From: Halobacteria archaeon HArc-gm2
GTDB taxonomy: Archaea; Halobacteriota; Halobacteria; Halobacteriales; Haloarculaceae
Assembly: GCA_025517465.1 (NCBI GenBank)
Contig: JAOPKE010000002.1
Coordinates: forward strand, 186,001-250,000
Direction: 5' to 3'
DNA: 64,000 bases
Shown here one piece after another: positions 7,091 through 58,832 of the stretch. Each line of letters opens with the position of its first letter. The stretch's first letter is position 1. The notes beneath the pieces are model-generated. The model did not search any database. It was not told where the DNA came from and worked only from the letters and a program-made list of their open reading frames with translations. The position numbers and the translations under genes were made by a program.

Positions 7091-7175
7091 CGACCGTTCG
7101 TGGTCGCTCCAGGGGTTTTCCTCCGTCGATTCTCGCTAGGAGTGAGAATAGCGATGGCGAACGCCAGCTGATCTT

Positions 7176-7295
7176 CCGCAAACGACAAGAAAGCCCCGAC
7201 CGGTTCGAGTCGGGGAGCTCGCTGCGCGCGCTCCCGGTGGTCGCGTGCTTGCGTCGCCAGCCTTCCTCGAACCGGTCGCCCCTTTCAGTCCCGCC
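7176..7295. repeat. Solo half-unit of the interspersed inverted-repeat family
   Basis: Starts CCGCAAACGACAAGAAAGCC and ends GCCCCTTTCAGTCC, the two ends shared by all family members. In between, GACCGGTTCGAG near the left pairs with CTCGAACCGGTC near the right, and GTGCTTGCG is the conserved internal block. Unlike the other copies, no inverted partner follows. The rest of the 310-base gap between the flanking genes shows no gene. Confidence 0.75.
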
Positions 7296-7400
7296 CGGAC
7301 GTTGATTGAACGGGTTCGGTACTCTCGGTGGTTGTCACGGTCGTGCCCTTCAGACCGGGAAACGGCGCGGACTTTTCACGCCCGAGTGCCAATCCATCAC

Positions 7401-16255: not shown

Positions 16256-16534
16256 CTACTCCACCAGGTCCTGGCGGACGTGGAAGCGCTCGTACCCGCC
16301 GTGGGAGAGTTCGAGCGCGTTCATCCACCAGTTCCACCGCTGGGCGAGCGAGTGGTCGTCGGGGGCGTCGGCGAGGTTCGCCAGGACGTCGTCGACGGTC
16401 AGGTCGAAGCCGAAGTCGTCGGTGATGCGTTCGGAGTCGGCCAGGTCCTGGACCTGGCGGGCGACGACGCGACGCGTCTCCTCGTCTGCGTCGTACTGGT
16501 CGGCGAACTCCGATTCGAGGCGCTGGCGGTCCAC
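16256..16534 (-). CDS. Conserved-looking haloarchaeal hypothetical protein
   Basis: 92 acidic residues, mostly helical (RLESEFADQYDADEETRRVV, DDVLANLADAPDDHSLAQRW). The C-terminus is Trp- and His-rich (WNWWMNALELSHGGYERFHV). No signal peptide, membrane segment or known motif was seen. The acidic composition and clean start support a real soluble protein; family not recognised. Confidence 0.65.
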   Translation of the reverse strand: MDRQRLESEFADQYDADEETRRVVARQVQDLADSERITDDFGFDLTVDDVLANLADAPDDHSLAQRWNWWMNALELSHGGYERFHVRQDLVE

Positions 16535-16620
16535 ACGTCATTCAGGGCGCGGATCCTAATCAACGTGTGGGCAGTGATAGCAGGAAAATCGCACGAGAAA
16601 CCGATACCGGAGGTACCGTA

Positions 16621-16883
16621 GCGAACAACCCGAAAGCTCTGGCCGCTTCGAGTCCCGGGCCTCGCTGTGCTCTTCGGACTTCGTCCTGCGGTGTTGGCTT
16701 AGTCCGGGTTCCTCGAAGCGGCCGCCCCTTTCAGTCCCACCTATCGGCGAATTGATCGGGATAAACGGGCGGACTGAAAGGGGCCGTTGGCTCTGTGGTG
16801 CCCCGACGAAGCAAGCACCGAACGAAGTGAGGCGCGCAGCGAGTCGCGGCCCCAGAGCCAACGGGGGCTTTCGGGTTGTTCGC
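16621..16883. repeat. 263-bp inverted-pair repeat element (short form)
   Basis: The outer ends are a perfect 17-bp inverted repeat, GCGAACAACCCGAAAGC at 16621-16637 and its complement at 16867-16883. Inside are two half-units facing each other. The left has the stem GGCCGCTTCGAG/CTCGAAGCGGCC and the right the stem CCGTTGGCTCTG/CAGAGCCAACGG. At the centre CCCCTTTCAGTCC faces GGACTGAAAGGGG across ~27 bases. GTGCTTG-like and GCAAGCACC blocks mirror each other. Open frames crossing it are not protein-like. Confidence 0.8.
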
Positions 16884-16944
16884 TGTCACAGTTATTGCCG
16901 TTCTCACGACAATACAGAAGAGAACGTAGTTACTCGCGCATCGA

Positions 16945-17318
16945 AAGCGGCTGAGGGGAGTAAGCCCCCTTCTGTTCGGCCCGGCATTCGGCTGAGCGTC
17001 CGCGCCCACGCGCCCGAAGGCGCGGGAACCGGGCTACCTGTCGGCGCGGACTTGCACCGGTGAGGATTCGCCGTTCCATCCGTTCTCCGCAGTCAGTCCT
17101 CGGTGGGTTAGCTCCCCGTCTCTTATCGGCCGAAGCCGCGTCGGTCCGGGTTCGCGCACCTCATCGGTCCTGCGGAGCGGTCTCGTTTCTGTTCCATAGC
17201 CGACGGTCTCCCGCCCCGGACTTGCGTCCGGTCACCTGCCCGGCTGGTGGGGGGACTTTCCTCATCGCCCTAGCGCATAGCGGTCCGGGCGACGGAGGCC
17301 GGGCTCCCTCTGCCGAGT
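16945..17318 (-). ncRNA. rnpB: RNase P RNA
   Basis: Read on the minus strand, the universal 5' core GATGAGGAAAGTCC is at ~17254-17267, and the 3' core ACAGAAGGGGGCTTAC is at ~16960-16975. Flanking ends GGCAGAGGGA (from 17314) and TCCCCTCAGCC (to 16949) can pair as helix P1. The ~370-base span and the GC-rich stems between the cores fit archaeal type A RNase P RNA. It processes tRNA 5' leaders with protein subunits encoded elsewhere. Exact termini are estimated; reading frames over this stretch are spurious. Confidence 0.95.
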
Positions 17319-19909: not shown

Positions 19910-20055
19910 ACCGCCGCTTTGCCCGCCTGTGAGAAAAAAGGGACCTACTCGGGCGTTGCTTGCTGGGTTTGCTCATGTGAGGTTGACTGTGGAGGAGTGA
20001 CCGGATGAACAACTTCGCCCCGATCGCGAGCAGTCAAGAAAGTCACTGCCAAGAA

Positions 20056-20625
20056 GTTGAAAGCCCTCGGCGCGCTCGACTCGTGCGACTCGCTGCGCTC
20101 CTCACTCCGTTGCGGTGCTTGCTTCGTCGGACTTCGTCGACCCCGCCTCGCCCTTTCAGTCCTCCAGGCCAGCGTTGCTCGCGCCACAGGGGCGCTCGCG
20201 GTTGACTCCCCACCCCTCCCCGGTCGCGCCTGGCGGCGCGACACGCTTCCTTCTGCAACCGCGCGGTGGTCGGCCGGGAGCGCGTTTCATCGCGCGACCC
20301 ACCGAAAGACTCGGCACACCTCGTTCGGCCGGGAGCGCGTTTCATCGCGCGACCCACCGAAAGACTCGGCACACCTCGTCTTTCGAGCCCACACTCGCTT
20401 CGCTCGCGTGGAAGGGGAAGGGAAGGGCTGCGGTGCTGTGCTGACCTGGTGTCCTGCTGAGCGAAGCAAAGCAGGGCTCGGAAGACGAACGGAGTGAGTC
20501 TTCGGGTGGACTGAAAGGGCGAGGTTCGGTCGGCGAAGCACGGACCCGCAAGCACTGGAACGAAGTGAAGCGCGCAGCGGCGTCCGCGCGAGTCGAGCGT
20601 GCCGAGGGCTTTCGACCTGTTGGCG
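20056..20625. repeat. Long-form inverted-pair repeat element with internal core
   Basis: Left end GAAAGCCCTCGGCGCGCTCG at 20059 mirrors the right end CGAGCGTGCCGAGGGCTTTC ending ~20613. Inner marks CGCCCTTTCAGTCC (~20148) and GGACTGAAAGGGCG (~20508) also face each other. The ~345-base core between them is shared with the elements at 36.4 and 40.1 kb. The core contains a perfect 55-base tandem duplication. It fills most of the 772-base gap between pncB and the surface-protein operon. Open frames crossing it (up to 204 codons) are repetitive, on both strands, and not protein-like. Confidence 0.78.
20270..20379. repeat. Perfect 55-bp tandem duplication
   Basis: Unit 20270-20324 is repeated exactly at 20325-20379. 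The unit begins TCGGCCGGGAGCGCG and ends GGCACACCTCGT. A single diverged copy is in the element at 40.3 kb, so the duplication happened inside this copy. Confidence 0.9.
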
Positions 20626-20681
20626 GTAGTCGTCTCGTGTGCTGGGGATTGTGGATATTCTCGCCCGATCCAGTATCTTAC

Positions 20682-30185: not shown

Positions 30186-30450
30186 GACAACAGCACGAAA
30201 GCCCCCTCCCGCTCGGTGGCTGCGAACCGCGCTGCGCGCGGCCTTCGGCCGTGCTTGCGGGTTCTCGCTCACCGAGCGGTCGGCCCCTTTCAGTCCACCC
30301 ACTTCGGCTGGTTCGTCAGGAGAAATAGGCGGGACTGAAAGGGGCGGCTGGCTCCGGGAACCCCGGCGTAGCAAGCACCGAGCGAACGGAGTGAGCGAGG
30401 CGCGCAGCAAGCCGCGGGACCGGAGCCAGTCGGGGCTTTCCTTTGTTGTT
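30186..30450. repeat. 265-bp inverted-pair repeat element (short form)
   Basis: Left end GACAACAGCACGAAAGCCCC and right end GGGGCTTTCCTTTGTTGTT are near-complementary. Left stem CCGCTCGGTG pairs with CACCGAGCGG; right stem GGCTGGCTCCGG pairs with CCGGAGCCAGTC. The centre is GCCCCTTTCAGTCC facing GGGACTGAAAGGGGC. It has the same layout and almost the same length as the element at 16.6 kb but different stem sequences. It occupies most of the 404 bases between pyrC and the next gene. Confidence 0.8.
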
Positions 30451-36223: not shown

Positions 36224-36377
36224 TCGGTTGCTTTTCGCAGTTTTCGGGCTCTCGAGCGGATGGCTTTGACGAGCTGGAGTGACGTTTTTCTCCGGTCGAT
36301 AGCGATGGGTATCTCGATCAGTAGGGGTGTGTATGGAACGGGTGGTTCGTCGCTATCTCGATGGAAGATAGGAGACC

Positions 36378-36856
36378 GCTAACACCCAGAAAGCCCTCGG
36401 CGCGCTCCGGTCCCGCGTCCCCGCTGCGCTCCTCACTGCGTTCCGGTGCTTGCGGGGTCGGGGTTCCCGGAGCCCGCCTCGCCCTTTCAGTCCTCCGAGG
36501 CCCGCATAGCACCACAGCCCTGCCCTTCCCCTGGTCGCAAGTACCTCGCTATCGCTCGGCCACTTGCTCCCGGCCGAGCGGTTGCCGAGCGGTCAGGACG
36601 CGTGTCGCGCCGCCAGGCGCGACCGGGGAGGAGTGGGGAGTCAACCGCGAGCGCCTCTGTGGCGCGAGCGAGGCAGTCCCTGGTGGACTGAAAGGGCGAG
36701 GCGTGGTCGGCGAAGCACGGTGACGCAAGCACCGAACGAAGTGAGGCGCGTAGCGAGCCGCGCGAGTCGAGCGCGCCGAGGGCTTTCGACGTGTTGTTGG
36801 CGGTCGTGATTCCGAGTCCAGAGAGCGCGCCGAGGGCTTTCGACGTGTTTTTGTCC
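36378..36856. repeat. Long-form inverted-pair repeat element with reversed core
   Basis: Ends GAAAGCCCTCGGCGCGCTC (36389-36407) and GAGCGCGCCGAGGGCTTTC (36769-36787) are perfect complements, and inner GCCTCGCCCTTTCAGTCC faces GGACTGAAAGGGCGAGGC (~36473-36490 and ~36684-36701). The ~190-base core matches the cores of the elements at 20.1 and 40.1 kb but in opposite orientation. The right end is partly duplicated: GAGCGCGCCGAGGGCTTTCG recurs at 36823. It fills most of the 761 bases between thioredoxin and the F420 reductase gene. Confidence 0.8.
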
Positions 36857-36984
36857 TCAGTCACGTCGACAATTCGAACCCCACAGATCGCTCACTACAC
36901 ACACTATACGCAACGTCCGTATCGTCGGTCAGCGAGTCGCGACGAGCGAGAGGAACCCCGACAACACACCAACTCGACGGCTCC

Positions 36985-39927: not shown

Positions 39928-40087
39928 GTGGTGCTCGTGGTGGCGGGTCCTCATTTCGGTTCCCCTTCTGTTCTGGCTCGGTCTATTTCTAGTCTGGTCC
40001 ACCCCTTCATCTGCGAGCTATCGGTACAGAAAGGGCGTGTCTGTAACGATCTGGGAATTTCTGAGTTCTGGCACAGTACCGTCACGA

Positions 40088-40552
40088 ACACGTCGAAAGC
40101 CCTCGGCGCGCTCGCGGTCGCTCAGCGGGATACCCTCACGTCCGTTCGGGTAGGGCCCGCTGAGCGACTGCCTTCCAGCGCGAGCCCACCTCGCCCTTTC
40201 AGTCCTCCAGGGACAGCCTCGCTCGTGCGATGAAACGCACTCACGATTGAGTCCGCCACTCCTCCCCGGTCGCTCGCCGTCCGGCGAGCGACACGCGTCC
40301 TGACCGCCCCGCAACCGCTCGGCCGGGAGGCCGTCTCGTCGGCCGACCCACCGAAAGACTCGGCACACCTCGTCTTTCGAGCCCACACTCGCTTCGCTCG
40401 CGTGGAAGGGGGAGGGCAGGGCTGCGGTGCTGTGAGGCCCCTGGAGGATTGAAAGGGCGAGGCGGGGTGGAGGAAGCACGGACCCGCAAGCACCCACGGA
40501 GCGCAGCGTGGTCCGCGCGACTCCAGCCCGCCGAGGGCTTTCTGGTTGTTGC
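40088..40552. repeat. Long-form inverted-pair repeat element
   Basis: Left end GAAAGCCCTCGGCGCGCTCG from 40095, right end CCGCCGAGGGCTTTC ending ~40542 and followed by TGGTTGTT. Inner marks CTCGCCCTTTCAGTCC (~40189) and GGATTGAAAGGGCGAG (~40446) face each other. The core carries CCACCGAAAGACTCGGCACA, as in the element at 20.1 kb, in the same orientation. It fills the gap between the HAD hydrolase and the UPF0146 gene and holds no credible protein. Confidence 0.78.
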
Positions 40553-58443: not shown

Positions 58444-58544
58444 GTGCGAGGGTGTGCCTGGTTGGATTATGAAGATGGCGTGGTCGGTACAGTGTGTGTA
58501 GTGAGCGATTTGGTGCGTGAGCATTTGCGGCGTGATAGTGGGCA

Positions 58545-58692
58545 ACAACACCTCGAAAGCCCTCGGTGCGCTCGCCTCGTGCGACTCGCTGTCGTCCGAA
58601 AATCGGAGATTTTCCAGCAGCTCGAAAGCCAAGCGAGTCTTTCGGTGCCGGAGCGCGTCGAGGGATTTCTGGGTGTTGGCGGTCTCCGTTCT
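58545..58692. repeat. Degenerate, deleted member of the inverted-repeat family
   Basis: Left end GCAACAACACCTCGAAAGCC and right end TTTCTGGGTGTTGGCGGTC mirror each other, but the central TTTCAGTCC blocks are missing. It keeps CTCGCCTCGTGCGACTCG, as in the element at 20.1 kb. This is a deletion derivative of the long or short form; it lies upstream of ridA and of the M32 gene in a 389-base gap without other features. Confidence 0.65.
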
Positions 58693-58832
58693 TCCAGCGC
58701 TATCCCATCAAAACACCCGTTGAACTCACCCTCACAGGGACCAGAAACACTGATCAGAAGACCACCTCGCCAACCGCCACCAACGGACCATCGAGCGCGG
58801 CAGTTTTACCGCGCCCCGTCCAATCACGGGCC

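Follow-up and report, generated by a model that had tools for sequence, protein, structure and literature searches.

A three-armed inverted repeat beside a haloarchaeal RNase P RNA gene is a copy of a dispersed hairpin-unit repeat

Layout and setting of the element at 16620-16884

Positions 16620-16884 of the window (the whole stretch of 64,000 nucleotides of Halobacteria archaeon HArc-gm2 that was analysed) raise the question of whether a closed structure with three arms is a unique functional object, a part of its neighbouring gene or a member of something more widespread. The initial annotation had described exact 17-bp terminal repeats around three stems, reminiscent of a cloverleaf, with no flanking gene. 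The outer repeat is indeed perfect and is one base longer than that, because the left arm AGCGAACAACCCGAAAGC (16620-16637) and the right arm GCTTTCGGGTTGTTCGCT (16867-16884) match over 18 bp. The three stems proposed inside it were all found and are perfect. The left arm (16641-16723) is closed by the stem GGCCGCTTCGAG (16641-16652)/CTCGAAGCGGCC (16712-16723), the central stem GCCCCTTTCAGTCC/GGACTGAAAGGGGC (16724-16737/16771-16784) has 14 bp around a 33-nt spacer, and the right arm (16784-16864), closed by the stem CCGTTGGCTCTG (16784-16795)/CAGAGCCAACGG (16853-16864), carries the conserved apical part GACGAAGCAAGCACC..GGCGCGCAGCGAGTC. Each strand, when folded, gave a closed outer stem with three arms (-158.9 kcal/mol, z -10.6, for one and -167.6 kcal/mol, z -10.7, for the other), and none of 200 dinucleotide shuffles folded as well.

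Genes do flank the element, contrary to the initial annotation: a 92-aa ORF on the minus strand (16256-16534) lies on one side and, on the other and outside the element, the archaeal RNase P RNA gene (16949-17314, minus strand; Rfam RF00373, 171 bits), an order of ORF and RNA gene that is the same in the congeners examined. A gap of 64 nt separates the element from the 3' end of the Rfam RNase P match, downstream of which it lies, as would suit a terminator or 3'-processing signal of this gene. Such a role is extremely improbable, given that the element is absent from the rnpB site in all six congeners and that other copies adjoin unrelated genes in all orientations; any RNase P-linked function was rejected because the site is not conserved in the congeners. 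For the same reason, 16620-16884 is not part of the RNase P RNA gene.

The element is built from a ~112-nt hairpin unit, GGACTGAAAGGGGC-arm-GGGGCTTTC, present in two inverted copies, the left unit at 16623-16737 on the minus strand and the right unit at 16771-16881 on the plus strand (100.8 and 108.6 bits, respectively, with covariance model R1). The central stem is formed by the inner ends of both units facing each other and the outer stem by their outer ends. A unique cloverleaf is thereby rejected: 16620-16884 is a copy of a dispersed haloarchaeal repeat.

A hairpin unit that changes in sequence and keeps its shape

A GAAAG/CTTTC foot and G-rich internal loops are fixed in the unit, and its irregular apical part, GACGAAGCAAGCACC..GGNGCGCAGCGAGTC, is conserved; the stem, 10-13 bp long, varies in sequence from copy to copy and retains its complementarity. 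It was described by a covariance model of 112 positions trained on 31 units from the window's genome. Units occur singly or, usually, as inverted pairs with their outer ends pointing outward, like two transposon ends, and this outward inverted order holds for 78 of 80 neighbouring units. The gaps within pairs are mostly either 20-40 nt (the three-arm, short-spacer class, to which 16620-16884 belongs with its gap of 33 nt) or ~170-350 nt (the long-spacer class). Among the 14 short-spacer elements of the window's genome, 8 have a perfect outer repeat of at least 12 bp, counted from CTTTC, and the 18-bp perfection of 16620-16884 is thus typical of its class and not exceptional. Members of the family have terminal inverted repeats and no coding capacity and are shorter than ~600 bp, some nested copies being longer. 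The copies examined in the window and across 400 kb of the nearest relative, G064, are intergenic, between ordinary ORFs, and the elements examined had no preferred orientation relative to neighbouring genes.

The pairing of the unit is conserved far beyond its sequence. Across 146 distinct units, standard pairs filled 96.4% of paired cells, compared with 73.9% in shuffled and 31-44% in slid controls; double-sided changes were found at 24 of the 29 pairs, and 0 of 500 shuffles reached the observed values. The covariation score was 0.524, compared with 0.138 (shuffled) and 0.04-0.06 (slid), and 19 pairs with double-sided change were already present in a 31-sequence MAFFT alignment that was not fitted to the structure. 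This covariation of the stems supports the initial proposal of strong selection, or else another mechanism that keeps the arms paired. Further, because the shape is constant while the stem sequence is free, the results suggest that a folded hairpin is what is recognised.

We also compared the ends of each element with those of its own partner and of other elements in the window's genome. The outer ends of short-spacer elements fit their own partner better than the ends of other elements (P<=0.0002), with matches of 0.75 compared with 0.49 over the first 4 positions (P<0.0002) and P=0.0002 over the first 8; own-partner matching was found neither for inner ends nor in the long-spacer class. Because the outer ends covary in this manner, the closed outer stem genuinely characterises the three-arm class. 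The cloverleaf of the initial annotation therefore stands in so far as the closed three-arm layout recurs in the genome, but a single cloverleaf is a doubtful candidate for the functional object, because solo units occur and the long-spacer class lacks outer-stem covariation.

Wobble pairs differed between the strands. On the GGACTGAAAGGGG..GGGGCTTTC strand, we counted 93 G.T pairs and 16 A.C mismatches, and 75 and 31, respectively, in an independent named set. The resulting strand preference is positive overall but weak, because it is carried mostly by two or three pairs, and it is gone from the independent set once the two strongest are left out. Taken with the RNA-like irregular hairpin, its conserved internal loops and the massive covariation, a G.T excess by which the fold of one strand seems to matter would fit a structured RNA or RNA regulator transcribed from this strand, with the genomic copies forming a multigene or SINE-like family. 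We regard this reading as unlikely: the excess rests on few positions, and wobbles make up only ~2% of pairs; every inverted pair has a unit on both strands; the orientation to neighbouring genes is not fixed; and Rfam 15 gave no match at the curated score at the element or related loci. A known RNA family was rejected on this last ground.

Distribution of the family and its presence or absence among relatives

A BLAST search of the window's genome placed the element at ~40 sites, where copies spanning most of it are 69-75% identical and partial ones mostly <85%. In this genome, the covariance model recovered at least 150 units, the weakest among the matches listed having an E value of 5e-16, and 11 of the units lie in the window, at six loci. 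BLAST-type matches were present in 64 of 96 sampled genomes of the same taxonomic family, and covariance-model matches in 167 of 194 Halobacteria genomes, some Halobacteria genomes having zero or one unit. Among 295 genomes drawn from the phylum, 47 had a match and every one of these belongs to the same order, and the archaea sampled outside Halobacteriales gave no match. Consistent with this, the exact foot pattern, searched over the GTDB collection, came from a haloarchaeon in every record among the matches listed. Within the searches made, the family is confined to haloarchaea. Neither the exact foot pattern in viral contigs nor the element in phage records gave a match, and a virus-borne element was rejected accordingly.

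The other loci of the window, compared with the orthologous regions of G064, were found in several states. The long-spacer sister at 20050-20622 (units 20050-20162, minus, and 20508-20622, plus) lies within 718 bp (19958-20675) that are absent in G064, where 1 bp separates the flanks; these flanks are too diverged for a target-site duplication to be called, and synteny is lost in the other congeners, which therefore do not fix the direction of the difference. Inside this sister, a ~120-bp stretch (~20325-20450) is 92-99% identical to several other places in G000 and G064 and, being far more alike than its host element, is probably a recently spread nested repeat. The long-spacer sister at 36380-36796 is likewise absent in G064, which has 51 bp of unrelated sequence in place of a region spanning 36233-36976, and the G064 alignment continues through a third long-spacer element at 40086-40551. 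A solo unit on the minus strand (7180-7291, compared over 7134-7362 of the window) has lost its arm almost wholly in the G064 orthologue. Conversely, ~58485-58720 is a remnant of a family element, and the orthologous site in G064 is intact (units L099 19559-19675 and 19874-19988).

The inserted element beside rnpB probably spans 16584-16931, counting ~40-50 nt of outer flank on each side, and this stretch has no homology to G064. We note that G064 carries there, between the 92-aa ORF and rnpB, a VOC/glyoxalase-like ORF (L078:784-1492, identified by eye), and because of this different insert the site is not a clean empty site.

Where copies are common to relatives, they change in blocks. The three-arm sister at 30188-30449 is present in both the window and G064, with conserved flanks; between G000 and G064 its right stem has changed blockwise on its two sides and is still fully paired, and the inner part of its left arm is replaced. 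In another genus, a single site compared in eight species had complete, arm-deleted, nested-insert, remnant and absent states, and the stems of the complete elements differ between species in a compensated manner. Random decay of the stems at a common site was not seen; what occurred was compensated change or outright loss of an arm. Such blockwise compensated changes with few wobble intermediates would also be produced by neutral upkeep of the palindrome, in which template switching alone copies one arm onto the other and no function is served. This is very improbable, as sequence conservation of the foot, the internal loops and the apical part extends over the whole class and as the family multiplies, which arm repair by itself would not achieve. 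The block-wise mode of change, in which wobbles are few, speaks for some contribution of arm-to-arm copying and of whole-arm exchange to keeping the arms paired.

The recent activity read from the perfect ends by the initial annotation is borne out only in part. It agrees with the absence of the element from the orthologous site in the six congeners and with the empty site of a sister element in G064, but other copies are common to several species, and perfect ends are no evidence of youth because orthologous copies alter their stems in a compensated manner. Several copies are old, and the family is therefore inactive at least in part.

Several copies retained at one site across species, together with the intergenic and class-wide occurrence of the family, might instead point to a site that shapes DNA or binds protein, kept for a host function (nucleoid, replication, recombination or supercoiling) and spread by gene conversion and not by transposition. 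Genomes with none or one unit, the many copies missing at orthologous sites and the free deletion of arms in relatives make this reading quite unlikely.

Smaller repeats were also seen in these elements. Arms of the hairpin-unit family contain insertions of another small palindrome of ~60-115 bp, with two hairpins around TGATGA, at L042 ~880-940, L052 ~935-1000, L060 ~895-960 and L069 ~735-800 and also in G056; in L052, L060 and L069 the insertion is at an identical position of the apical part. On the Haloarcula rara chromosome (L230:1493-1830), the flank/arm of an element contains several tandem copies of a ~50-bp sequence.

A probable mobile-type repeat, its plasmid form and its relation to known elements

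The family combines multiplicity, conserved structure, the inverted-pair rule, intergenic placement and presence or absence between related genomes. Because its units are inverted and point outward, end in terminal repeats, reach high copy number and differ in presence between relatives, we infer a mobile-type element: 16620-16884 is probably a two-unit copy of a non-autonomous, structure-recognised repeat of SMR/REPIN/MITE-like type. In this mechanism, the ends, folded as single-stranded nucleic acid, would be recognised chiefly through the shape of their hairpins, and a putative enzyme supplied in trans would mobilise the element. Selection for shape would keep the arms paired, possibly helped by arm-to-arm templated copying or by cassette exchange between copies, and the copy beside rnpB would have arrived within the window's lineage. 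The class-wide persistence and covariation of the family would fit a host function as well.

Neither a mobilising enzyme nor an autonomous copy was found, an autonomous partner with the same ends having been sought in three genomes. A candidate in Haloarcula rara (L230), with units 1.9 kb apart, was rejected as an autonomous copy because it is two elements with host genes between them. In some elements, an additional outer terminal repeat, CGTGAGNGG..AACTACTGTGTTGATCA, lies 40-50 nt beyond the hairpins. With at most 2 mismatches, AACTACTGTGTTGATCA has 18 matches in G000, G064 and G076; those followed up (G000 and G064) all lie at elements of the hairpin-unit family, with no transposase beside them, and the end of a known transposon was rejected as the identity of this repeat because these matches fall only there. 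Similarly, seven genomes with at least 15-19 units each (G036, G100, G103, G105, G109, G023 and G025) gave no match to Y1_Tnp (PF01797), and a resident RAYT/HUH transposase as a requirement for high copy number was rejected because these high-copy genomes lack this domain.

The nearest relatives in kind are the SMR, PATE and MITE elements of Haloquadratum (PMC3119063). SMR-A of Haloquadratum walsbyi is ~110 bp long, has terminal repeats, makes no target duplication and inserts into palindromes near the ends of PATE/IS605 elements (Dyall-Smith et al. 2011, PMC3119063). Like SMR-A, the hairpin unit is haloarchaeal, ~110 bp, non-coding, ended by inverted terminal repeats and present in tens of copies, with no transposase assigned and an enigmatic mobilisation. 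However, copies of SMRs are commonly >95% identical (PMC3119063), whereas hairpin-unit copies are only ~70-84% alike, occur mainly as inverted pairs, have stems free in sequence and occupy ordinary intergenic DNA; the palindromes nested in the arms at L042, L052, L060, L069 and in G056 are more SMR-A-like than the unit itself. PATEs (palindrome-associated transposable elements) are likewise haloarchaeal, non-coding and heterogeneous, with palindromes near their ends, and host small nested repeats, but they lack terminal inverted repeats and have ends in common with IS605-type transposons, in contrast to the inverted-repeat ends of the hairpin-unit elements. The family resembles REP/REPIN sequences, doublets mobilised by RAYT, in being intergenic, in exceeding 100 copies and in having a palindromic unit that is single or in an inverted pair; it differs in the length of that unit (~112 nt compared with 20-40 nt for REP), in its free stem sequence and in the lack of Y1_Tnp from several genomes rich in units. 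As in MITEs, the elements are short and non-coding, have terminal inverted repeats and are present or absent between relatives, although no autonomous partner sharing the ends was found in three genomes. No description of the hairpin unit was found in Rfam or in the open-access papers searched.

In several genomes with a single hit, an OB-fold gene has upstream of it a unit fused with a non-coding block of ~200 bp that is nearly invariant. This plasmid-form stretch matches 158 haloarchaeal plasmids in PLSDB, 85 of them over at least 80% of its length. Plasmid-form loci (L127:1500-1810, L123, L128, L129, L131, L118 and L133) come from many haloarchaeal genera, and the OB-fold gene is a 'DNA-binding' one. 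The single-hit genomes had been considered as carriers of a single-copy ancestral gene, and this was rejected in its simple form because these genomes differ in the kind of hit, and many of the hits are plasmid-type units. Unit and block together are a candidate origin, transfer or single-strand promoter region, and the plasmid form would fit a role in transfer, replication or single-strand promotion. There is a small chance that the unit is at root a signal used by haloarchaeal plasmids, read through its structure in folded single-stranded DNA or RNA, and that it has since spread over chromosomes. If so, the chromosomal stems diversify with their shape kept, and the mode of recognition would be comparable in principle to that of integron attC sites.

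Overall, the hairpin-unit family is structured and non-coding, is abundant in the window's genome and is present through most of the Halobacteria sampled. Its free stem and fixed shape provide hundreds of natural variants for studying how mobile repeats are recognised by shape, and the same variants are useful for studying how archaea keep palindromes perfect. The plasmid form may be the best route to the function of the family, which is testable in genetically tractable haloarchaea.
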